A stretch of DNA of 64,000 nt, from NCBI RefSeq assembly GCF_000023225.1, contig NC_013173.1, positions 3,164,501 through 3,228,500 on the forward strand, given 5' to 3'. Source of the DNA: Desulfomicrobium baculatum DSM 4028 (lineage in GTDB: Bacteria > Desulfobacterota > Desulfovibrionia > Desulfovibrionales > Desulfomicrobiaceae). Shown here one piece after another: positions 19,650-31,500 of this stretch. The first letter of the stretch is position 1; each line of letters begins with the position of its first letter. The translations under genes were made by a program, and so were the position numbers. Below the pieces are notes generated by a model, which did not search any database, was not told the DNA's origin, and saw only the letters and a program-made list of their open reading frames with translations.

Positions 19650-19801
19650 GCAACCCTCTCCTTGGTCCTGGCGGAATAGAATTGCTTCACCTTACGCGTG
19701 AATTTGGCATGCATCAATGCCCAAAATGGAGAACTCCCGACTCCACATATCACCGGCCAAAACCATATTTCAGAAAAAATGACCGGCGGTCATAAAAAAT
19801 C

Positions 19802-19807
19802 TTGACA
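19802..19807 (+). promoter_or_regulatory. Candidate -35 box before the aromatic leader
   Basis: A perfect TTGACA lies 34 bp upstream of the leader-peptide start. No convincing -10 follows at 16-18 bp (GTAGTC or TAGTCA), so the promoter of the aromatic gene run is uncertain. The rest of the 19650-19841 spacer holds only a near-palindrome at 19705-19723 (TTGGCAT...ATGCCCAA). Confidence 0.3.
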
Positions 19808-19841
19808 GCCTCCTCGCAAACTGAGTAGTCAGGCAATCGTT

Positions 19842-19928
19842 ATGACAAACTTCTCCCTCAATCACAGCCTGTACTTTTTTTGGTACTTTTATTTTAGCAG
19901 AGCCTGTGGTCTGAGGGGACTGCTTTAG
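19842..19928 (+). CDS. Aromatic-rich leader peptide of the aro-phe-tyr-trp run
   Basis: A 28-codon frame begins ATG ACA AAC TTC and ends TAG at 19926-19928. Residues 11-18 read YFFWYFYF: eight aromatic codons in a row (three Tyr, four Phe, one Trp). The stop is followed 29 bp later by a GC-rich terminator and then the first gene for aromatic amino acid synthesis. This is the layout of a ribosome-mediated attenuation leader, as known for trpL and pheL. A weak AGG ribosome site precedes the ATG. It is too short to be called by usual gene finders. Confidence 0.8.
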   Translation: MTNFSLNHSLYFFWYFYFSRACGLRGLL

Positions 19929-19990
19929 CCTTATTTGACAAAAGCAAACCAACCTTAGGGCCGCAGGCGACACGCCGGCGGCCCTTTTTT
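19896..19990 (+). promoter_or_regulatory. Attenuator: pause, antiterminator and terminator hairpins
   Basis: The terminator stem is GGGCCGC (19958-19964) with GCGGCCC (19978-19984), continued inside by GGCG/CGCC, and followed by six T. An antiterminator can form between CUGAGG (19911-19916) and CCUUAG (19953-19958), which shares a base with and adjoins the terminator stem. AGCAG (19896-19900) and CTGCT (19920-19924), directly after the aromatic codons, could form the pause hairpin. A ribosome stalled on the aromatic codons would cover AGCAG and favour the antiterminator. The pairings are my reading and were not folded by computer. Confidence 0.65.
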
Positions 19991-20033
19991 ACATTCAAGG
20001 CCCCGGGCGCCCGGCCGAAACCGGAGGAAAATC

Positions 20034-20840
20034 ATGAACATGGGAAAAAGCGTACGACTGGAGAGGATCTTCAACCGCAACACGGGCCGCAGCATCATCG
20101 TGCCCCTGGACCACGGGACCACGGTCGGCCCCATCGAAGGACTGGTCGACCTGCGCTCCACAGTGAACAAGGTGGCCGAAGGCGGAGCCAACGCGGTGCT
20201 CATGCACAAGGGCCTGCCGCGTTGCTCGCACCGGGGCCATGGCCGCGACGTGGGCCTCATCATTCACCTTTCGGCCAGCACCACGCTGTCCCCCTTCCCC
20301 AATGCCAAGATCCTGGTCGGCACGGTCGAAGACGGGATCAAGCTCGGCGCGGATGCGGTGTCCGTGCACCTGAACCTCGGTGACGAGTCCGAACGCGACA
20401 TGCTGCGCGACATGGGTCAGGTCGCCTCCAAATGCGCCGAATGGGGCATGCCGCTCCTGGCCATGGTTTACGCCCGCGGCCCCAAGGTCAAATCCGAATG
20501 GGATCCGGCCACCGTGGCGCACTGCGCTCGCCTGGCGGAAGAACTTGGCGCCGACGTGATCAAGGTCGTATACACCGGAGACCCGGAGTCCTTTTCCAGA
20601 GTGACCGAAGGCTGCTGCATTCCCATCGTCATTGCCGGCGGCCCGCGCATGGAATCTCCGCGCGACATCATCCAGATGGCTCATGACTCTGTTGCCGCCG
20701 GCGGCGCAGGCCTGTCCATGGGTCGCAACATCTTCCAGGCCGAAAACCCGACCCGCCTGGTGCAGGCCTTGCACGCAGTGGTGCACATGGATTACTCCGT
20801 CGATCAGGCCCTGGCCCTGCTTGAAGAACCCAAACTCTAG
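20034..20840 (+). CDS. 2-amino-3,7-dideoxy-D-threo-hept-6-ulosonate synthase
   Basis: This 268-residue aldolase of the FbaB/DeoC type (the archaeal AroA' family) makes the seven-carbon precursor of 3-dehydroquinate from a ketofructose phosphate and aspartate semialdehyde. It thereby replaces DAHP synthase. Visible motifs are the N-terminal RLERIFNRNTGRSIIVPLDH and the Schiff-base region IKVVYTGDPESF with a Lys. It is the first structural gene after the attenuator and is followed by 3-dehydroquinate synthase II, its pathway partner. Confidence 0.92.
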   Translation: MNMGKSVRLERIFNRNTGRSIIVPLDHGTTVGPIEGLVDLRSTVNKVAEGGANAVLMHKGLPRCSHRGHGRDVGLIIHLSASTTLSPFPNAKILVGTVEDGIKLGADAVSVHLNLGDESERDMLRDMGQVASKCAEWGMPLLAMVYARGPKVKSEWDPATVAHCARLAEELGADVIKVVYTGDPESFSRVTEGCCIPIVIAGGPRMESPRDIIQMAHDSVAAGGAGLSMGRNIFQAENPTRLVQALHAVVHMDYSVDQALALLEEPKL

Positions 20841-20849
20841 GTCCGCTTC

Positions 20850-21818
20850 ATGAAAAAAGTACTCTTTTCCGGCGTCCCCTTTGACAAGGGCGAGATCACC
20901 CTGGCTCTGGAATCCGGCGTGGACGCGGTCATCGTCGAGCGCGAGCACGTCGCCTCGGTGCAGGCCCTGAGCAAGATCCCGGTCCTGGCCGCCGAAGACC
21001 AGCCCTATGTCCTCCTGGCCTCCAAGGCAGACGAGGAAGAGGCCGTGAGGCTCCTGGCCCAGGGCAGGGACGTCATCCTGAGGGAAGGCTGGGAAATCAT
21101 CCCCGTGGAAAACATCCTGGCCCAGTCCGAACATCTAGCCGTGGAGGCCGCAAGCCTGGAACGGGCACGCCTCGCGGCGGGCATCCTGGAGCGCGGGGTC
21201 GAAACCGTGGTCGTCCTGCCTCAAGCCGCCGCAGATCTTAAAACCATTGTCCGCGAACTCAAACTGAGCCAGGGAATCATGGAACTGGAAACCGCGACGG
21301 TCACCGCCGTCACCTCCGCAGGACTCGGACACCGCGTCTGCGTGGACACCATGAGCCTCCTTAAATCCGGTCAAGGCATGCTGGTCGGCAATTCCAGCGC
21401 CTTCACCTTCCTCATCAACGCCGAGACCGAATCCAACCCCTACGTGGCCCCCCGCCCGTTCCGCATCAATGCCGGAGCCGTACACGCCTACGCGGCCATG
21501 CCCGGGGACAGAACCACGTACCTGGATGAACTCAAAACCGGAACAGAAGTGCTCATCGTCGGCGCCGACGGTTCGACCACCCTGGCCACGGTGGGCCGCT
21601 GCAAGGTCGAGATCCGGCCCATGCTGCTCATCGAAGCCGAGGCGGGTGGCAAGATCGGCACCCTCTTCCTGCAGAACGCCGAGACCATCCGCATGGTCCG
21701 CGACGACGGCCGCCCGGTCAGCGTGGTCGACCTCAAGATCGGCGACAAGGTGCTGTGCCGCACGGATCAGGCCGGACGGCATTTCGGCATGCGCATCACC
21801 GAGGAGATCAAGGAATGA
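20850..21818 (+). CDS. 3-dehydroquinate synthase II (archaeal type)
   Basis: The 322-residue protein matches the AroB' family, which converts the amino-dideoxyheptulosonate into 3-dehydroquinate by NAD-dependent deamination and cyclisation. It is unrelated to classical AroB. Family stretches include MLVGNSSAFTFLINAETESN, FRINAGAVHAY and TYLDELKTGTEVLIVGADG. It begins 9 bp after the synthase gene, and its stop overlaps the pheA start (ATGA). Together the two genes form the non-canonical entry to the shikimate pathway. Confidence 0.94.
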   Translation: MKKVLFSGVPFDKGEITLALESGVDAVIVEREHVASVQALSKIPVLAAEDQPYVLLASKADEEEAVRLLAQGRDVILREGWEIIPVENILAQSEHLAVEAASLERARLAAGILERGVETVVVLPQAAADLKTIVRELKLSQGIMELETATVTAVTSAGLGHRVCVDTMSLLKSGQGMLVGNSSAFTFLINAETESNPYVAPRPFRINAGAVHAYAAMPGDRTTYLDELKTGTEVLIVGADGSTTLATVGRCKVEIRPMLLIEAEAGGKIGTLFLQNAETIRMVRDDGRPVSVVDLKIGDKVLCRTDQAGRHFGMRITEEIKE

Positions 21819-22933
21819 ACTCGTCCACGCAGCGCCTGACCGAGATCCGGACCCAGATCGACGACCTGGACGAACGGATCCTCGATCTCTTGAACAAACG
21901 CGCTTCTTTAAGCCGCGAAGTGGGCCAGCTCAAATCCGATTCCCTGGACATCGTCTTCAAGCCCTTCCGCGAAAAGGAAGTTTTGAGCCGCCTGAACGCC
22001 TTGAGCCCCGGCATCCTGCCCGAAGATCACCTGCGCGCCATCTACCGCGAGATCCTGTCCTCCTCCCGCCGCCTGCAGCAGCCCCAGACCGTGGCCTACC
22101 TCGGCCCCGAGGGCACCTTCACGCATCTGGCGGGCCTTGAGTACTTGGGCCGCTCCATGGACTTCACCCCCTGCCCGACCCTGCACGACGTCTTTTTGAC
22201 CGTGGCCTCGCGCAAGGCGGACCTTGGCGTCATTCCGCTCGAAAACTCCCTGCAGGGCAGCGTGGGCCAGAGCCTGGACCTCTTCCTGCAGTACAATGTC
22301 TATATCCACGCCGAGCTTTTCAGCCGCATCAGCCATGCTTTGCTCGCCGTGAACGCCGACCTGTCCTCCGTGCGCACGGTCTATTCCCATCCTCAGGCCC
22401 TGGCCCAGTGCTCCGGATGGCTGCGCACCAACGTGCCCCAGGCCTCCGTCATCCCCACCGAGAGCACGGCCGCGGCCGCGGCCCAGGCCGAGCGCGAGGG
22501 CGACGGCTCCGCAGCCATCGGGCACCCAAGGCTGGTGGAACGCTATGGCCTGAAAGCCGTGGCGCTGGACATCCAGGACCTGCCGGACAACTGGACCCGC
22601 TTTCTGGTCATCGGGCCCACGCCGACGGTCGGCAGCAGTCGCGACAAGACCTCCCTCCTGTTCACCACGCCGGACCGGCCCGGCGCCCTGGCCGCCATCC
22701 TGAACCTGCTGGCCGACCAGGGGCTGAACCTGACCAAGCTGGAATCGCGGCCCCTCAAGGGCGAAAAATGGAAATACGTCTTCTTCATGGACGTGGAATG
22801 CGACCTGTCCCAGGAACAGTATGAAAACACCATGAACAACCTGACCAGCCTCTGCCACACCATGCGCGTGCTCGGCAGCTACCCCACGGGCCCGCACCTC
22901 TACGGCGCTGGCATGGTCCAGGAGCAGGCATGA
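21815..22933 (+). CDS. pheA: Bifunctional chorismate mutase/prephenate dehydratase
   Basis: The 372-residue enzyme takes chorismate to phenylpyruvate for Phe synthesis. Residues about 5-90 are an AroQ-type chorismate mutase (IDDLDERILDLLNKRASLS), about 95-275 the prephenate dehydratase (YLGPEGTFTHLA, VIPLENSLQGSV), and the C-terminal part an ACT domain with GALAA and LESRP motifs, the Phe-binding signature. Feedback inhibition by Phe is therefore likely. The start at 21815 overlaps the preceding stop; the ATG at 21755 upstream lies inside the previous gene. Confidence 0.96.
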   Translation: MNSSTQRLTEIRTQIDDLDERILDLLNKRASLSREVGQLKSDSLDIVFKPFREKEVLSRLNALSPGILPEDHLRAIYREILSSSRRLQQPQTVAYLGPEGTFTHLAGLEYLGRSMDFTPCPTLHDVFLTVASRKADLGVIPLENSLQGSVGQSLDLFLQYNVYIHAELFSRISHALLAVNADLSSVRTVYSHPQALAQCSGWLRTNVPQASVIPTESTAAAAAQAEREGDGSAAIGHPRLVERYGLKAVALDIQDLPDNWTRFLVIGPTPTVGSSRDKTSLLFTTPDRPGALAAILNLLADQGLNLTKLESRPLKGEKWKYVFFMDVECDLSQEQYENTMNNLTSLCHTMRVLGSYPTGPHLYGAGMVQEQA

Positions 22934-24276
22934 AACCCGTCATCGACATCACCGCGCCCTCATCCAAGTCCCTGTCCCACCGGGCGCTGATCTGCGCGGC
23001 CCTGGCCGAAGGCGAGTCGCTCCTCGAAGGCGTGCTCGACAGCCAGGATCTGACCCGCACCGCCGGGTGCCTGCGCCTTCTGGGGGCACTCATAACGCCT
23101 CAAGGCGGCAAGCTCTTTGTGCGCGGCATCGGCGGGAAGACAGGAGCCAGCGCAGAAGGCCCCGTCTCCATGAACGTCGGCGAATCCGGCACCACCTGCC
23201 GGCTCATGGCCGGCGTAGTCACGGCCATCCCTGGCATCTACCGCATCCACGGCGAGGGGCGCATCCACGACCGTCCGGTCGCGCATCTGACCGACGCCCT
23301 GACCCAGCAGGGTGTGCGCGTCACCTTCGAGGAAAAAAGCGGCTACCCGCCCATGGTCATGTCCAGCCCCGGCCTGATCGGTGGCGAGGTGACCATCAAC
23401 CTGGAGCAGAGCAGCCAGTATCTCTCGGGCCTGCTCCTGGCCGCGCCCCTGGCGACCGGGACGACGACCATCCGCCTCATCGGCAGGTCCGTGGCCTCCT
23501 GGCCCTATGTCGCACTGACGCTCGACACCATGGCCCGCTTCGGCGTGCCCGTGATCCTGGAACGCAGAATCCTGGACGATTGGCATTCCTGCACCCACGC
23601 CGAGGCGGCGGGTCTTCCCCCCACGGACATCCGGCTCGTCGTCCACCCGGCCCCCTACCGGGCCGGAGCCATGCGCGTCGAGGGCGACTGGTCCAATGCC
23701 TCCTACTTTCTGGCCGCAGGGGCCGTGGGCACGGCTCCGGTCCGCATTTCCGGGCTCAGCAGGCAGTCGGCCCAGGGAGACCGCTTCATGCTCGAAATCC
23801 TGTCCCGCATGGGCGCGTCCGTCGAATGGCAGGACGACGTGGTCACGGTTTTTCCGTCAGCGCTGCGCGGCACGCAGGTCGACATGAACGCCTGTCCGGA
23901 CATCGTGCCCACAGTGGCGGCCATGGCCGCCTTCGCCACCGGCGAGACAATCATCTCCGGAGCCGCGCACCTGGCCCTGAAGGAATGCGACCGCATCCTG
24001 GGACCGGTCACGGAACTGTCCAAGGCCGGTGTGAATATCGAGGCCCGTCCCGACGGCATGATCATTCGCGGCAACGGCGGGCTTCTGCCGCGCAGCGTGG
24101 ACCTGTGCACCTACGGCGACCACCGCATGGCCATGAGCTTCTCCCTGCTCGAACTGGGGGGCATCAGCGTAAACCTCGACAACCCCTCCTGCGTGGCCAA
24201 ATCCTTTCCTGGGTTCTGGGACGTCTGGAGCCTGATCCGCCTCGGCAACGGCCTGGGAGCCACGCATGAGTCTTAG
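22930..24276 (+). CDS. aroA: 3-phosphoshikimate 1-carboxyvinyltransferase (EPSP synthase)
   Basis: EPSP synthase joins shikimate 3-phosphate and phosphoenolpyruvate. The 448-residue protein shows PSSKSLSHRALICAALA at the N-terminus, the NVGESGTTCRLM motif, the RIHDRPVAHLTDAL region and the C-terminal GDHRMAMSF. It overlaps pheA by 4 bp and tyrA by 11 bp. The intervening shikimate steps (aroD, aroE, aroK) are not in this cluster. Confidence 0.97.
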   Translation: MKPVIDITAPSSKSLSHRALICAALAEGESLLEGVLDSQDLTRTAGCLRLLGALITPQGGKLFVRGIGGKTGASAEGPVSMNVGESGTTCRLMAGVVTAIPGIYRIHGEGRIHDRPVAHLTDALTQQGVRVTFEEKSGYPPMVMSSPGLIGGEVTINLEQSSQYLSGLLLAAPLATGTTTIRLIGRSVASWPYVALTLDTMARFGVPVILERRILDDWHSCTHAEAAGLPPTDIRLVVHPAPYRAGAMRVEGDWSNASYFLAAGAVGTAPVRISGLSRQSAQGDRFMLEILSRMGASVEWQDDVVTVFPSALRGTQVDMNACPDIVPTVAAMAAFATGETIISGAAHLALKECDRILGPVTELSKAGVNIEARPDGMIIRGNGGLLPRSVDLCTYGDHRMAMSFSLLELGGISVNLDNPSCVAKSFPGFWDVWSLIRLGNGLGATHES

Positions 24277-25045
24277 CCCCGCATCGGCCATCGTGGTCAT
24301 CGGCGCCAAAGGGCAGATGGGGGCGCGCTTCGTACGCAGCTTTCGCGAAGCGGGCAACCCCGTGACCGAGTTCGACCATCCCCTGGATCTGGCCAGGCTG
24401 CCCGGCGCCGTGCGGGGGGCCGCCCTTGTCCTCTTGTGCGTACCCATCACGGCGATGAAGGATGTCGTCGCCTTGGTGGCCCCGCATCTCACGCAGACGA
24501 CCATCCTGGCCGACATCTGCTCGGTCAAGGTCCAGCCCCTGCGTGACATGCTGTCCCAGACCACAACGCCCGTGGTCGGCACCCATCCACTTTTCGGCCC
24601 CGAAACGCTTGACGTGGAGCTACGAATTGCCGTAACTCCGGGACGTGACCAGGAAGCGACCGATAATCTATCAAGCTGCTTCCGCGATCTGGGATTTTCC
24701 CCGTTCACCACAACGGCCGATGAGCATGACAAAGCCATGGCCTACATCCAAGGACTCAACTTCGTGACAACCGTCGCTTACCTCTGTGCTTCCCCTCTGG
24801 AAAACGGAATCGAGCGTTTCTTCACGCCCTCGTTCGGACGACGCGTGGAGGCGGCCACGAAAATGATCACCCAGGACGCCCCCCTCTTCTCCACCATGTT
24901 CGAAGCGAACCCCCACAGCCTTGAAGCCGTGCGCGCGTTTCGTTCATACCTGAACGTCGCCGCCGGCGGCGATCTGGAACTTTTGAGCCAGAAGGCTCTT
25001 TGGTGGTGGCGCAAGCAGCATGACGCAGGGGGACCCGCTTCCTGA
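24266..25045 (+). CDS. tyrA: Prephenate dehydrogenase
   Basis: The 259-residue protein oxidises prephenate to 4-hydroxyphenylpyruvate for Tyr synthesis. It has an N-terminal NAD(P)-binding motif (VVIGAKGQMGARFV) and the family segment VVGTHPLFGPE. It lacks a chorismate mutase part and an ACT domain, so it is a short monofunctional form. It overlaps aroA by 11 bp and is followed by a strong terminator before trpE. Confidence 0.93.
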   Translation: MSLSPASAIVVIGAKGQMGARFVRSFREAGNPVTEFDHPLDLARLPGAVRGAALVLLCVPITAMKDVVALVAPHLTQTTILADICSVKVQPLRDMLSQTTTPVVGTHPLFGPETLDVELRIAVTPGRDQEATDNLSSCFRDLGFSPFTTTADEHDKAMAYIQGLNFVTTVAYLCASPLENGIERFFTPSFGRRVEAATKMITQDAPLFSTMFEANPHSLEAVRAFRSYLNVAAGGDLELLSQKALWWWRKQHDAGGPAS

Positions 25046-25085
25046 CGGCATCGCAGTGCCGTTAGTTCAGGCATAAAAGGCATTA

Positions 25086-25118
25086 AAGCCGGATCCTCCC
25101 AGGATCCGGCTTTTTTTT
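25086..25118 (+). terminator. Strong intrinsic terminator between tyrA and trpE
   Basis: AAGCCGGATCCT and AGGATCCGGCTT form a perfect 12-bp stem with a CCC loop, followed by a run of T. Only 33 bp separate it from the trpE start and no clear promoter lies there, so trp expression may depend on read-through. A weaker hairpin (CGGCA/TGCCG) precedes it near 25046-25061. Confidence 0.88.
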
Positions 25119-25151
25119 ATTCAAAATTCAACAATCGATTATGGAGGCACC

Positions 25152-26564
25152 ATGATCACCCTACCCCAACAGGGGACCTGGCTCCCGGCGGACACACAGA
25201 CGCCCATCTCCCTGTACCTGACACTGGTGCGCGAAAAACAGGGTTTCCTCCTTGAAAGCACCGAGGTGGACGGACGGCTGGGCCGGTATAGCCTCATCGG
25301 CTGGGATTATCGCCTGATCCTCTCCTGCTCCGGCGGCAAGCTCGACGTGCAGAGCTACGACCCGCGCCTGCATGCCTTGAAGGAATTCAGCGGCCAGGAT
25401 TACGTGTCCGGGCTGCGCGCCTGCCTGAACGCCCTGACCGTCACCGGCCCCGAAAACCTGGGCCCGCTCCCGGCCGTGACCAGGAGCGTGTGCGGCTACA
25501 TGGCCTACAACATGGGCGGCATCTTCGAGCCGGCCCTGGCCGACCGCTTGCGGCCCGAAGAAGGGCGCTCCATCATGGTCCTGCCGGGCAAGGTCATCCT
25601 CTTCGACCACCTGCATCACCGCTGTTGCTACCTGACGCTCGATTCGACCACCAACCTGAACGGCTGCCAGCGCCCGAGCACCCCGGCTCCGCCCGTGGTC
25701 GGCGCCATCACCACCACGCCGAACCAGGATGAATTCCTGCGCCGTGTGGGCCGGGCCAAGGATCTCATCACCGAGGGCGAGGCAATCCAGATCGTGCTCT
25801 CGACCCGCTTCTCGGCTCCGTTCTCAGGCTCCGCCTTTGAACTGTACAGGCGTCTGCGGCAGATCAACCCCTCTCCTTACACCTTCTTCATGTCCTTCGG
25901 GGAGTTGACCATCATGGGCTCCTCGCCGGAACTGCTCATCCGCTGTGAGGACGGCCTCTTGCAACTGCGGCCCATCGCCGGAACCCGCGTACGCGGAGCG
26001 ACAGAGGCCGAGGATCAGGCCTTGGCCGAGGAACTGCTGGCCGACGAGAAAGAGCGGGCCGAGCATGTCATGCTCGTGGACCTGGGCCGCAACGACCTCG
26101 GCCGCATCGCCGCCCCCGGCACCGTACACGTCGACAAATACATGCAGGTCGAGCGCTTTTCCCATGTCATGCACCTGACCTCCTACCTCTCGGCCCATCT
26201 GGCCGAGGGCCTCGACGCCATCGACGTGCTCAAGGCCGGATTCCCGGCAGGCACCGTCTCCGGCGCTCCCAAGATCCGGGCCATGCAGATCATCGCCGAC
26301 GAGGAGAAGCTTGATCGCGGCCCCTATGCCGGCGGCATCGGCTGGATCGGCCTCGACCAGGGGCAGGTCAACCTCGACACGGGCATCACCATCCGTTCCC
26401 TCTGGGTCGAGAACGGCCAGATCAACTGGCAGGCGGGCGCAGGCCTCGTCTTTGACTCGGATCCCGAAAAGGAATGGCAGGAGTGTCACAACAAGGCCAG
26501 GGCAATTCTGAAGGCTATCACCAGCACCGGAGGCGGCGATGATTTTACTGATCGACAACTTTGA
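25152..26564 (+). CDS. trpE: Anthranilate synthase component I
   Basis: TrpE converts chorismate to anthranilate with ammonia supplied by TrpG. The 470-residue protein has the LLES element (GFLLESTEVDGRLGRYSL) involved in tryptophan feedback binding, and the catalytic C-terminal half with PIAGTRVRGATEAED, DLGRNDLGRIA and GTVSGAPKIRAMQII. A GGAGG site precedes the ATG. It overlaps trpG by 26 bp. Confidence 0.97.
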   Translation: MITLPQQGTWLPADTQTPISLYLTLVREKQGFLLESTEVDGRLGRYSLIGWDYRLILSCSGGKLDVQSYDPRLHALKEFSGQDYVSGLRACLNALTVTGPENLGPLPAVTRSVCGYMAYNMGGIFEPALADRLRPEEGRSIMVLPGKVILFDHLHHRCCYLTLDSTTNLNGCQRPSTPAPPVVGAITTTPNQDEFLRRVGRAKDLITEGEAIQIVLSTRFSAPFSGSAFELYRRLRQINPSPYTFFMSFGELTIMGSSPELLIRCEDGLLQLRPIAGTRVRGATEAEDQALAEELLADEKERAEHVMLVDLGRNDLGRIAAPGTVHVDKYMQVERFSHVMHLTSYLSAHLAEGLDAIDVLKAGFPAGTVSGAPKIRAMQIIADEEKLDRGPYAGGIGWIGLDQGQVNLDTGITIRSLWVENGQINWQAGAGLVFDSDPEKEWQECHNKARAILKAITSTGGGDDFTDRQL

Positions 26565-27123
26565 CTCGTTTACTTTCAACCTGGTTCAGGTTTTCCAATC
26601 TTTGGGCGCAAACCCCTTGGTGCTTCGTAACAACGAGCCGGAAATCCTGAACCTGGCCACGGACCCGCGCCTGCGTGGCGCGATCATCTCCCCCGGCCCC
26701 AGCCACCCGCGCAACACCGGGCTGTGCCTGCAGTTTCTGGATCTGGTCCCGAAAAGCGTGCCGGTCCTTGGCGTCTGCCTCGGGCACCAGACCCTGGCGC
26801 ACCACAGCGGCGTGACCGTGGGCTCGGCCCGGCGCATCATGCACGGCAAAACCTCGGATATCCGCCACGCCGGGACCGGCCTCTTTGCGGGGCTGCCAAA
26901 CCCCATGCAAATCGGGCGCTACCATTCCCTGGCCGTGCATGAGGAAGGACGGACCGACCTGCCCTTCACCGTCACCGCCCGCACCGACCGCGGCGAGGTC
27001 ATGGCCCTGGCCTTCAGGGATCGCCCCTGGGTCGGCGTGCAGTTCCACCCCGAATCCGTGCTCACGCCGGACGGCCCGAAGCTTCTCAAAAACTTCCTCA
27101 GCATGTGCGACACCACGGAGTAA
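26539..27123 (+). CDS. trpG: Anthranilate synthase component II (glutamine amidotransferase)
   Basis: The 194-residue class I amidotransferase begins MILLIDNFDSFTFNLVQ. The nucleophile Cys lies in VLGVCLGHQTLA and the His/Glu pair in GVQFHPESVLT. It provides ammonia to TrpE and is not fused to TrpD. The start lies inside trpE, which suggests coupled synthesis of the two subunits. Confidence 0.97.
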   Translation: MILLIDNFDSFTFNLVQVFQSLGANPLVLRNNEPEILNLATDPRLRGAIISPGPSHPRNTGLCLQFLDLVPKSVPVLGVCLGHQTLAHHSGVTVGSARRIMHGKTSDIRHAGTGLFAGLPNPMQIGRYHSLAVHEEGRTDLPFTVTARTDRGEVMALAFRDRPWVGVQFHPESVLTPDGPKLLKNFLSMCDTTE

Positions 27124-27126
27124 GCC

Positions 27127-28128
27127 ATGAACACCATCAGCCATATCCTCGAACACCTGACCACGGGCGCGGACCTCTCCGCTCCCCAGGCCAAGGAAGC
27201 CTTCGACCTCCTGCTGACGGGCGAGGTCTCCCCGGTGCAGGCCGGGGCCTTTTTGATGGGCCTGCGGGCCAAAGGCGAAACCGCCGCCGAGCTCTCGGCC
27301 GCCGTGGAAGCGGCACTTAGCCAGGCCCGGCTCATTCCCGGACTCTCGGGCAAGCGCATCGACACCTGCGGCACGGGCGGCGACGGCCAGCACAGCTTCA
27401 ACTGTTCCACGGCCGTGTCCTTCTTCCTGGCCGACATGGGCTATCAGGTCGTCAAGCACGGCAACCGCGCCGTGTCGAGCAAGTGCGGCAGCGCCGACGT
27501 GGTCGAAGACTTGGGTTACCCTCTGGTCACGGAACCCGAGGAGGCGCGGGCGGAGCTGGCGCGACGCAACTTCGTCTTCCTCTTCGCCCCGCATTTCCAT
27601 CCGGCCTTCAGGCATGTGGGGCCGGTGCGGCAACAGCTTGGCGTGCGCACCATCTTCAACCTCATGGGCCCGCTCCTGAACCCGGCCCTGCCCACGCACC
27701 AGATATTGGGCGTGCCGGATTTTCGCTTCGCGCCCATGATCGCCCAGGTCCTGGCGGCCAGAAAGGGCTTGGAGCGCGCGGCCATCGTCCACGGCGCGGG
27801 CGGCTTCGACGAACTGACCCCCTGCGGCCCCGGACAGGTCATCTTCATCGAACACGGCGTGATCCGCGAAACAGTCCTCGACCCGGCGGATTTCGGCCTC
27901 TCGACCTGCGTGCCGAGGGCTCTGGCCTGCGACAGCAAGGAAGAAGCGCTCAAGCTGCAACGTCAGGTCCTGACGGGAAAAGGCCCCAAATCCCTCCAGG
28001 ACATGGTCACCCTGAACCTCGGAGTGGCCATCTACCTGCTGGAGGACAATCTGCCCCTGGAGCTGGCCATGGAAATGGCGCAGGCCAAGGTGGAACAGGG
28101 ACTCTCGCACGGAGTGTGCCATGCTTGA
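27127..28128 (+). CDS. trpD: Anthranilate phosphoribosyltransferase
   Basis: TrpD transfers phosphoribose to anthranilate. The 333-residue protein shows the PRPP-binding CGTGGDGQHSFNCST motif, KHGNRAVSSKCGSADV and the NLMGPLLNPA region. It begins 3 bp after trpG with a GGAG site and overlaps trpC by 8 bp. Confidence 0.97.
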   Translation: MNTISHILEHLTTGADLSAPQAKEAFDLLLTGEVSPVQAGAFLMGLRAKGETAAELSAAVEAALSQARLIPGLSGKRIDTCGTGGDGQHSFNCSTAVSFFLADMGYQVVKHGNRAVSSKCGSADVVEDLGYPLVTEPEEARAELARRNFVFLFAPHFHPAFRHVGPVRQQLGVRTIFNLMGPLLNPALPTHQILGVPDFRFAPMIAQVLAARKGLERAAIVHGAGGFDELTPCGPGQVIFIEHGVIRETVLDPADFGLSTCVPRALACDSKEEALKLQRQVLTGKGPKSLQDMVTLNLGVAIYLLEDNLPLELAMEMAQAKVEQGLSHGVCHA

Positions 28129-28894
28129 GAAATTCCGCCTGGCCAAGGAAGCGGAAGTCCGGGAGCTCCTGCGCCTGCGCGACGCCGGGCATGTGCATAC
28201 GCCTTGGGGCCGCCCCCGTCCGGGTTTTGGCGCGGCTCTGACCCGGTCCGGATCATCGGGCATCATCGCCGAGTACAAGCGCGCCTCCCCGTCCAAAGGC
28301 GACATCAACGTAAGCGTCACGCCCGCTGAAGCCTGCGCCGGGTACGCCAAGGCCGGGGCCTGCGCTTTGTCCATCCTGACCGAGAGCCGCTATTTCAAGG
28401 GCGACCTCTCCTTTCTGGCCGAGGTCGCCGGCCTTGGCCTGCCGCTCTTGCGCAAGGACTTCATCATCCATCCCTTGCAGGTGGAGGCGACCACGGCCAC
28501 CCCGGCCTCGGCGATCCTGCTCATCGTGCGCATGTTCGAGGATTTGAACAATCTGGCCACGCTGCATACCCTGTGTTTGAAACATGGCCTTGAGCCTGTG
28601 GTGGAGGTCTTCGACGAACGCGATCTGGACCGGGCCAAGGAAATCGGGAGCACCATCATCCAGGTCAACAATCGCGACCTGGACACGCTGACCACGGACC
28701 TTGGCCGCTGCCTGGACATGGTGCGGCGCAAGGAGGAAGGTGAAATCTGGATCGGGGCCAGCGGCATCGCAACCTTCGAGCAGGTGCGGGAACTCAAAAG
28801 CGCTGGCCTGGACGCGCTCCTCATCGGTACGGCGCTCATGCAGCACGGCGATCCCGGCCAGGGTCTGGCCGCGCTGACCGGAGGGAGATCATGA
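28121..28894 (+). CDS. trpC: Indole-3-glycerol phosphate synthase
   Basis: TrpC closes the indole ring. The 257-residue TIM barrel has IIAEYKRASPSKGDI, VLTESRYFKGDL-like (ILTESRYFKGDL), LRKDFIIHPLQV and the later INNRDL-type stretch (VNNRDLDTL). It is separate from TrpF, unlike the E. coli fusion. It overlaps both neighbours. Confidence 0.97.
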   Translation: MLEKFRLAKEAEVRELLRLRDAGHVHTPWGRPRPGFGAALTRSGSSGIIAEYKRASPSKGDINVSVTPAEACAGYAKAGACALSILTESRYFKGDLSFLAEVAGLGLPLLRKDFIIHPLQVEATTATPASAILLIVRMFEDLNNLATLHTLCLKHGLEPVVEVFDERDLDRAKEIGSTIIQVNNRDLDTLTTDLGRCLDMVRRKEEGEIWIGASGIATFEQVRELKSAGLDALLIGTALMQHGDPGQGLAALTGGRS

Positions 28895-29505
28895 TCATCA
28901 AGGTTTGCGGCATGACCAGGTCCGAAGACGTCGAATTCTGCGACGCGCTCGGCATTGACCTCCTGGGCTTCATCTTTCATCCTGAGAGCCCCAGAAACAT
29001 TGCGCCGGAATGGGTCGCCACCCAAAAGCCCGGCCGCGCCCTCAAGACCGGCGTCTTCGTGCGCCAGGGCGTGGAGGAAATCAGCGCCATCGCCAAAGCG
29101 TCAGACCTCGACCTGCTGCAACTCCACGGCGGGCACACTCTGGAACAGTGCCGGGACCTCGGACCCGAGCGGGTCATCAAGACCCTATGGCCCCAACGTT
29201 ATGCGACCACGGAACTCCTGCTCGCGGACATGCTCCTTTTCGCCCCGGTCTGCCGGGCCATTCTGCTCGACAGCGGGACCAGCGGCGGCGGACACGGCAC
29301 AAGCCTGAGTGCCACCGATCTGCAACGACTCAAATGCCCCCATCCCTGGTATCTGGCCGGGGGCCTCGGGCCGCACAACCTGACGGCCATGAAATTCACC
29401 GGCGCGAGCGGCTTCGATCTCAACTCCGGAGTGGAAAACCTTCCCGGAATCAAGGATCATGAGAAAATCCGCACCGCCTTACACATACTGCGAGGAAAAC
29501 CATGA
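28891..29505 (+). CDS. trpF: Phosphoribosylanthranilate isomerase
   Basis: TrpF isomerises phosphoribosylanthranilate. The 204-residue TIM barrel begins [16 protein letters not shown] and contains [20 protein letters not shown] and a C-terminal FDLNSGVEN, with the catalytic Cys in KVCG. It overlaps trpC and trpB by 4 bp each. Confidence 0.95.
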
Positions 29506-30740
29506 GCAGAATATCCGACATGCTCCCCCGTCATTTCGGCCCTTACGGCGGCCGCTATGTGCCGGAGATGCTTGTTCCGGCCCTGGAAGAGCTGGAACAG
29601 GGCTACCAAAAATACAAGGACGATCCCGAGTTCACGGCCGAACTGACGGACCTGTACCAAAACTACTGCGGCCGCCCCACGCCGCTCTACTTCGCCGAGA
29701 ACCTGACCCGCGAGCTTGGCGGCTGCAAAATCTACCTGAAGCTCGAAGGGCTGGCACACACCGGCGCGCACAAGATCAACAACGCTCTCGGCCAAGCGCT
29801 GCTGGCCAAACGGCTGGGCAAGACCAAGGTCATCGCCGAGACCGGGGCTGGTCAACACGGCCTGGCCTCGGCCACGGTGGCCGCGCGGTTCGGCCTTGAG
29901 TGCAGGGTCTTCATGGGCGAGGTGGACGTGCGCCGCCAGTACCCCAACGTCTATGCCATGAAGCTCCTCGGCGCCGAGGTCATCCCGGTCACCGACGGCA
30001 CTAGAACCCTGAAGGACGCGGTCAACGCCACCCTCAAATACTGGATTCAGAACTTGAAAGACACGCACTACATCCTGGGCTCGGCCCTTGGGCCGTTCCC
30101 CTACCCGGTCATCGTGCGCGATTTCCAGTCCGTCATCGGCCGCGAAGCGCGCGCCCAGATCCTGGAACGCGAGGGCAGGCTGCCCAATCATCTGGTAGCC
30201 TGCGTGGGCGGCGGCTCCAACTCCATCGGACTCTTCCATCCCTTTCTGCAGGACACGGGCATCCGCTTCCACGGGGCCGAGGCCGGAGGACGAGGCCCTG
30301 CCATTGGCGACAATGCGGCCCGCTTCGGCGGTAAACCCAAGGTCGGCATCGTGCAGGGCTACAAGAGCTATTTTCTGCAGGACGAGAGCGGACAGCTGCA
30401 GAACACCCATTCGGTCTCGGCGGGCCTCGATTATGCCGGGGTCGGACCGGAGCTGGCCTGGCTGCATGACCAGAACATCATCGAATTCGCGCCTATCACC
30501 GACGTGAAAGCACTCGATGCCTTCAAGCGCCTGACGCGGCTGGAGGGGATCATCCCGGCGCTCGAATCCTCCCACGCCGTGGCTCGTGCCATCGAACTGG
30601 CACCGACACTGCCGAAAGACGAGATCATGATCGTCAACATCTCCGGGCGCGGCGACAAGGACATCTTCATCACGGCCATGGAACTGGACCGCGAAAACTG
30701 GATAGCATTTTTGGAGAACGAGGTGCGCCATGGAAAATAA
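29502..30740 (+). CDS. trpB: Tryptophan synthase beta subunit
   Basis: TrpB condenses indole and serine with pyridoxal phosphate. The 412-residue protein shows [17 protein letters not shown], the Schiff-base Lys in [23 protein letters not shown] and the phosphate loop [12 protein letters not shown]. It is of the common trpB1 type, paired with trpA (11-bp overlap). Confidence 0.98.
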
Positions 30741-31500
30741 TATCGACCGGGCGCTGGCAAACGCGGCAAGCATCCAGCTCATGACCCATGTGGTGGCCGG
30801 GTACCCGAATCTGGACGTGAACGCCGATCTCATCCGGCTCATGGCCAGGCGGGGGGTGAAACTCATTGAAATCCAAATCCCCTTCACCGATCCACTGGCC
30901 GATGGCCCGACCATCATGCGCGCCAACCAGGCCGCCCTTGATCAGGGCGTCACGCCCCGCCACTGCTTCGAGCTGTGCGCGGCCCTTTCCAGGGAACTGC
31001 CGGAGGTGGCGTTCCTGTTCATGACCTACGCCAACATCCCGTTTGCCTTGGGGCTTGAAACGTTCATGGCCAAGGCCAGGCAGAGCGGGGCCAGCGGCCT
31101 GATCCTGCCCGACCTGTCCTGGGACGAGAGCGACGGCGACTACGCCGGGGCCGCCCGCGAACACGGACTGCACCCGGTCATGGTCATTTCCCCGGACACG
31201 CAAAGCCCGCGTCTGGACGCCATCCTGAGCCGCGCCTCAGGCCTGTTGTACACGACGCTCAAAGTCGGCATCACCGGGGCCGGAGCCGGCATCGATCAGA
31301 CCGGCGTGGATTATGTCCGAAGCCTGAAGAAAAAAACCGGCCTGCCCATCGCCGCCGGTTTCGGCATCTCAAGCCCCGATCACGTCCGCATGCTGGACGG
31401 CTTGGCCGACGTGGCCGTGATCGGCAGCCACATCATCAACCTGATGGATGCACAGGGGCTGGGGGCCGTGGATGAATTTTTGGCGGCGTGTGGGGATTGA
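30730..31500 (+). CDS. trpA: Tryptophan synthase alpha subunit
   Basis: TrpA cleaves indole-glycerol phosphate to indole, which is channelled to TrpB. The 256-residue TIM barrel contains [17 protein letters not shown] with the catalytic Glu, LPDLSWDE with the catalytic Asp, and a C-terminal [12 protein letters not shown]. It is the last gene of the aromatic run; palindromic repeats rather than a T-rich terminator follow it. Confidence 0.96.

Follow-up and report, generated by a model that had tools for sequence, protein, structure and literature searches.

How is the 12-gene aromatic operon controlled that fills part of the window (the whole 64,000-nt stretch of Desulfomicrobium baculatum DNA analyzed here), and what does the short reading frame directly ahead of it do? 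The sequence-only reading had placed a leader before ADH synthase, DHQ synthase II and an aro-phe-tyr-trp run, and our gene assignments agree:

20034..20840, + strand: ADH synthase (2-amino-3,7-dideoxy-D-threo-hept-6-ulosonate synthase, ADHS), the first regulated gene (TIGR01949, 382 bits, cut-off 299)
20850..31500, + strand: DHQ synthase II (identified by PF01959), pheA, aroA, tyrA, trpE, trpG, trpD, trpC, trpF, trpB and trpA, in the same order in relatives

TrpR repression was rejected as the main control, as no TrpR was found above the cut-off in 101 genomes, E. coli TrpR being detected in the control set. With high confidence, we read the region ahead of the operon as a ribosome-mediated transcription attenuator whose leader peptide would sense Phe, Tyr and Trp together.

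The reading frame and its codon run are as follows:

19842..19928, + strand: leader peptide ORF of 28 sense codons, translated as MTNFSLNHSLYFFWYFYFSRACGLRGLL* and conserved in relatives
19872..19895, + strand: sensor, eight consecutive aromatic codons TAC TTT TTT TGG TAC TTT TAT TTT

Translation of 19842-19928 places YFFWYFYF at residues 11-18 of MTNFSLNHSLYFFWYFYFSRACGLRGLL, as had been claimed for this 28-codon frame, and the ORF ends 105 nt before the start of the ADH synthase gene. Aromatic codons are T-rich, so a T-rich stretch could mimic an aromatic run, and the locus might then be a plain constitutive terminator, or the leftover end of an upstream gene, accompanied by an AT-rich ORF that arose by chance. 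When 19651-20033 was shuffled 20,000 times with dinucleotides preserved, 21 shuffles produced a short ORF with 6 or more aromatic residues out of 8, and none produced 8 of 8. A scan of both strands of 1.24 Mb from 80 loci required an ATG ORF in which 6 or more of 8 residues are aromatic and, 28-35 nt upstream of it, a TTGACA-like box matching at 5 of 6 positions or better; it gave 32 cases at the leader place and 0 elsewhere.

The regions upstream of ADHS that were compared came from three sets: genomes of the order, 80 named loci and 60 loci elsewhere in the phylum. Of the 110 loci from the order, 94 have an aromatic leader with a terminator; the counts are 68 of 78 for the named loci and 38 of 60 for the remainder of the phylum. 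The order set and the named set overlap, with some loci identical in sequence. The runs of the 168 distinct leader peptides contain Phe, Tyr and Trp in 120, Phe and Tyr in 29, only Phe in 13 and only Tyr in 6, and Phe is their commonest residue. TTT makes up 80% of the leader Phe codons vs 28% in the ADHS genes behind, and TAT makes up 69% of the Tyr codons vs 37%. Outside the order, the residues after the run are wholly different (..STGLP.., ..GRGLP.., ..AGVCP..) and the aromatic run stays, so it is the codons that are kept and not a frozen sequence. Conservation of the aromatic codons and the terminator, on which the sequence-only reading had made its case depend, therefore extends across the order and much of the phylum. 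Two stand-alone ADH-synthase copies (L262, L276) had no leader that we could find.

The leader ORF and the terminator are real, far beyond chance. Besides the shuffles, the ORF, the promoter spacing and a covarying alternative helix (both described below) are kept across the order, and the aromatic run is kept across the phylum. Shuffles, conservation and covariation rule out a chance T-rich ORF, and the explanation by a plain terminator or leftover gene end has a practically negligible probability.

The leader RNA up to the first gene contains the segments of an attenuator:

19851..19874, + strand: segment 1, pairs with segment 2 by duplex energies (1:2 hairpin, aromatic codons in the loop)
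19896..19927, + strand: segment 2, within the last leader codons, with the core GCCTGTGGTCT at 19902-19912
19939..19969, + strand: segment 3, includes the 5' arm of the terminator and pairs with segment 2
19957..19985, + strand: terminator hairpin (3:4) with the conserved mismatch A19965/G19977; A19965 pairs with U19905 in the antiterminator
19985..19990, + strand: T-run of the terminator

The strong GC-rich terminator proposed earlier was located between the leader ORF and the first gene as an intrinsic, conserved terminator, AGGGCCGCAGGCG-ACA-CGCCGGCGGCCCT-TTTTT at 19957-19990, with a hairpin of -23.9 kcal/mol. Folding of the region 19835-19993 gave -52.6 kcal/mol (z = -4.7), and none of 200 dinucleotide shuffles was as stable. 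In the alignment, 92.6% of the cells of the terminator helix 3:4 are paired, with double changes in 7 pairs. The antiterminator 2:3, which is mutually exclusive with it, is also paired in 92.6% of cells over 44 distinct constructs and shows compensatory change, with 22 double changes vs 6.9 in shuffles (0 of 500 as high). When the 2:3 helix was slid by 1-3 columns, pairing fell to 31-44%. Cognate 2:3 duplexes average -34.2 kcal/mol vs -30.2 kcal/mol for swapped partners; for 1:2, the values are -26.9 vs -21.6 kcal/mol and represent duplex energies only.

One base of segment 3, A19965 in the window, has a partner in segment 2 in 86 of 87 loci (U-A 54, C-G 19, U-G 11, A-U 2) and is mismatched with segment 4 in 71 of 87, so segment 3 is under selection to form the antiterminator as such. 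Judged from these aligned loci, the terminator carries a weak point that is kept at A19965/G19977. The position of segment 2 within the final leader codons would account for the conserved RACGL.

The competing antiterminator that the sequence-only reading had called plausible folds well as long as segment 4 has not been made. At this stage, the RNA below a ribosome at the first aromatic codon folds into 2:3 with -32.4 kcal/mol; this form has P 0.84 in the window and a median of 0.78 over 133 leaders. Equilibrium folding favors the terminator whichever ribosome position is modelled, with a stalled ribosome or none (window P 0.84-0.90), and was discarded as evidence for antitermination, so that the support for the switch comes from the kinetic window only, and the decision of the switch must be kinetic. 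The decision is likewise kinetic in other attenuators.

From these elements we infer the following course of events. The transcript would begin at the leader AUG or slightly ahead of it, with a ribosome trailing RNA polymerase through the leader. When all three charged tRNAs are plentiful, the ribosome would pass through segment 2, 3:4 would pair and transcription would stop at 19985-19990. A shortage of any of the three would stall the ribosome within the aromatic codons, so that segment 1 is covered and segment 2 stays accessible; 2:3 would form ahead of the synthesis of segment 4, allowing RNA polymerase to read into the 12-gene operon. In the case of no translation, 1:2 and 3:4 would form and lead to termination.

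The predicted start of the leader mRNA is based on the following elements:

19802..19807, + strand: -35 box TTGACA, 34 nt before the leader ATG, from the sequence
19826..19831, + strand: degenerate -10-like TAGTCA (TG at 19822-19823), its consensus weak in the window
19838..19842, + strand: predicted transcription start, 0-4 nt before the leader ATG, from the -35/-10 spacing

Among 101 distinct ADHS upstream regions, 87 have a TTGACA box (at least 5 of 6) located 29-34 nt before the leader ATG, most often at 31, so in the order a promoter, with a predicted start, stands ahead of the leader ORF at a nearly constant distance. When these 87 loci were aligned on the -35 box, base 24 at the -10 position was always A or T and base 25 was A in 80%; bases -2 and -1 relative to the ATG were pyrimidines in 92% and 98%. 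Shine-Dalgarno matches before 116 leaders of the TTGACA promoter type stayed at the random level; they were strong for the ADH-synthase genes and weak for leaders of other groups. Because of the 29-34 nt spacing and the missing Shine-Dalgarno signal, which together fit a 5' end at the start codon, a leaderless or nearly leaderless leader mRNA is predicted for most of the order, with a 5' UTR of 0-4 nt in the window.

Two further observations concern this region. In a group of one genus (g12; L213, L215, L229, L237 and others), the aromatic leader is kept (SWYFFAYF..ACGREL) and TTGACA at 29-34 nt is absent; groups of this kind have weak Shine-Dalgarno-like sequences before the leader ATGs. Just upstream of the -35 box of the window, 19777-19796 forms a perfect palindrome, ATGACCGGCGGTCAT, which also occurs in a congener (L012) and is a candidate for an operator or for the end of an antisense transcript.

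If a leaderless mRNA stops at a strong terminator, a transcript of about 150 nt would result, which raises the possibility that the locus is mainly a source of an sRNA or a trans-acting peptide, with attenuation secondary. The model for this is S. meliloti rnTrpL/peTrpL, where the 5' end of the trpL RNA is the leader ATG, the leader peptide is leaderless and rnTrpL, beginning with this ATG, acts in trans (PMC7298713). That trpL senses Trp only and stands before trpE(G); it resembles the predicted leaderless leader of the window, homology having been compared via Rfam only. The leader described here stands before a matching gene, its sensor codons change with that gene, and the antiterminator pairing is under selection in cis, so a main role in trans seems very unlikely to us. 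The preferred reading remains an attenuator acting on the operon behind it.

If the leader senses three amino acids, its codons should be read against the genes downstream. Operon content was determined for 60 loci, read up to 13 kb downstream. Trp is part of the run in all 22 operons that include trp genes vs 13 of 36 that do not (Fisher p = 2.7e-7, the loci being related by descent), and in 35 of 44 operon heads vs 0 of 14 stand-alone ADH-synthase genes (p = 8e-8). Its presence changed at least 14 times on the protein tree; phylogenetically independent contrasts all point in the same direction and are too few for significance (p about 0.06-0.25). Where Trp codons occur without nearby trp genes (13 of 36 leaders), the common pathway nonetheless has Trp among its end products. 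The stand-alone ADHS copies have Phe-rich (RFFFFSFF, FFFFFFF) or Tyr-rich runs (PYYYYG, TYYYYGY) without Trp, and where trpE lies elsewhere in the genome, it has its own Trp-only leader in 21 of 23 cases (GWWWR, NWCWWR). The leaders of two congeners (G012, G006) are free of Trp (VFVYDYY, VFAYGYY), and in these genomes no trpE (E 1e-60), no trpD (E 1e-5) and no operon-type trpB was found; only the second trpB is present, as in all six genomes tested. The leader ORF therefore holds a run of codons matching the end products of the downstream genes. Because Trp codons track the trp genes of the operon and Phe and Tyr codons stay where trp is absent, the codon and gene content supports the earlier proposal that the leader would sense Phe, Tyr and Trp together.

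In practice, the switch might respond to one amino acid, Phe or Trp alone, with the other aromatics as bystanders or as padding for slow translation. A ribosome held at the end of the aromatic run would partly cover segment 2; the eight codons may thus differ in effect and, by this geometry, the early ones may dominate. The predominance of Phe in the runs also speaks for a response to one amino acid. Single-amino-acid sensing is nonetheless unlikely in our estimate, given that all three amino acids occur in the run of 120 of 168 distinct leaders and that Trp both tracks the trp genes and is missing in the congeners without trpE and trpD. Runs of a single type on other genes (below) argue further that specificity is selectable. 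We therefore retain joint sensing of the three aromatics as the preferred reading.

Two other arrangements involve trpE. In one genome (G017), whose aro operon lacks trp genes, tandem Trp leaders (L440/L442; ..SNLWWWHGLSYG.., ..AWLWWWLFSRVRG..) precede a separate trpE. In another (L352, G005:C73), a second leader of the Phe-Tyr-Trp type (MNKIIPNHSSLYFFWCFYCNGSCGLGELL) precedes trpE and a remnant of the tyrA 3' end, which looks as though duplication and deletion had split the operon.

Related switches were searched with a covariance model, R1, which covers segment 2 to the terminator; it has terminator pairs only and is therefore not a test of the antiterminator. The scan of the D. baculatum genome itself gave one strong match (87.5 bits), the next one (26.6 bits) being without a leader. 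Other R1 matches with the same architecture stand ahead of an SSF symporter, a TRAP substrate-binding protein, a separate trpE and a TrpB2-like gene. For the SSF symporter (PF00474), a Phe-rich run lies upstream in 11 of 14 homologues, and for the TRAP substrate-binding protein (PF03480), a Trp run lies upstream in about 13 of 28. From these runs, the SSF symporter is predicted to be a Phe importer and the TRAP transporter a Trp importer.

The individual loci are as follows. Phe-rich leaders (e.g., MNSHQNRFGFFFFFGFRFFRSACGLGVCE) precede the SSF sodium:solute symporter at L342, L344, L346, L347, L354, L357, L359, L361 and L364 (homologues: L402-L409, L411 and L415); at L357, the symporter is accompanied by a small symporter accessory protein (NF045580). 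Trp-rich leaders (RLWWWRASCGRVYG, NLNWWWRFWGEVRSG) precede the TRAP protein at L360, L362, L363, L365, L376 and L380, with further such loci at L385, L386, L388, L390, L391 and L393. At L435 (G023:C5), the TrpB2-like gene, which was named from its sequence, is preceded by the leader MDITCTCIASFGTAWSWRLAANGRGRGVRL, which has a TTGACA box at 30 nt and GGCCGCAGACG as its terminator.

The related switches have the TTGACA spacing and the CCUGYGGYC/GGCCGCAGG core largely in common, which suggests that one switch was copied to several genes and its codons exchanged. We lean, with some reserve, toward a modular attenuator family of the Desulfobacterota, in which a constant switch (the CCUGYGGYC/GGCCGCAGG antiterminator, the terminator and the promoter for a leaderless mRNA) would be combined with an exchangeable cassette of sensor codons, which specifies the ligand. 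The cassettes would be Phe, Tyr and Trp for the fused supraoperon, Phe or Tyr for duplicated ADH synthases, Phe for the SSF symporter, and Trp for separate trp genes, the TrpB2-like gene and the TRAP transporter. These related switches, like the promoter placement and the conserved terminator mismatch, go beyond the sequence-only reading.

The known system closest in plan is the trpL leader of E. coli, which senses one amino acid, has a leader led by a Shine-Dalgarno sequence and is co-controlled with TrpR. The window shares with enterobacterial trpL a leader ORF with sensor codons, the pairings 1:2, 2:3 and 3:4, a Rho-independent terminator and biosynthetic genes behind it; unlike trpL, its leader holds three amino acids, its mRNA is predicted to be nearly leaderless and no TrpR was found. 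The Rfam Trp_leader model gave no match at the gathering threshold in the whole window and none up to E 5 at 19750-20040. The best sub-threshold match was Phe_leader RF01859, over the full model length (19.1 bits, E 0.69); the aromatic run and the terminator are shared with pheL, which senses Phe only and controls pheA. At 19.1 bits vs a gathering threshold of 55, assignment to RF01859 was rejected, and no Rfam family matched the element of the window above threshold.

Known attenuators had been said in the sequence-only reading to sense usually one amino acid, as trpL and pheL do; this has to be qualified, since multi-amino-acid attenuators are known for ilv (ilvGMEDA) and thr (thrABC), which are gammaproteobacterial and sense branched-chain amino acids or Thr/Ile. 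The present leader resembles these in having codons for several end products of its own operon and differs in sensing, as we propose, three aromatics and in the splitting or swapping of its sensor content between genes in relatives.

The further claim, that a multi-aromatic attenuator on this pathway was not well described, held in part. The open-access literature yielded no account of an aromatic leader peptide from these bacteria, and earlier subscription reports are possible. A putative attenuator was, however, listed in 2005 for the D. vulgaris operon aroA'>aroB'>aroQ-pheA>aroF>tyrA>trp (Table 7 of Song et al., PMC1173090). That entry was drawn from the Merino database, an automatic terminator/antiterminator screen, and the attenuation section and table of the paper mention no leader peptide, sensor codons or conservation (PMC1173090). 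Given the same operon type and position, the D. vulgaris element is very probably a relative of the one in the window. A comparative survey of 2013 gives attenuators only for His, Leu, Thr and Trp (in Rfam) and for Ile/Val and Phe, lists no aromatic multi-sensor and considers that amino-acid attenuators may have originated in gammaproteobacteria (PMC3766115). Leader-peptide attenuation as a mechanism is thus already known; to our knowledge, the fused sensor for three aromatics, on an mRNA predicted to be nearly leaderless and with a swappable cassette, is new.

In summary, the whole phylum of sulfate reducers and their relatives appears to run its unusual ADH-synthase aromatic pathway by an attenuator whose sensor content evolves with operon fusion and splitting, gene duplication and pathway loss. 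The leaders offer a natural series for how the number, kind and position of codons set the response of an attenuator. E. coli has Phe-, Tyr- and Trp-controlled DAHP synthases, a comparison for the ADH-synthase isoenzymes seen here. Testable ligand predictions follow for two transporter groups and for these isoenzymes, and, if the modular family is real, the cassette would predict the amino acid served by an orphan transporter or isoenzyme.
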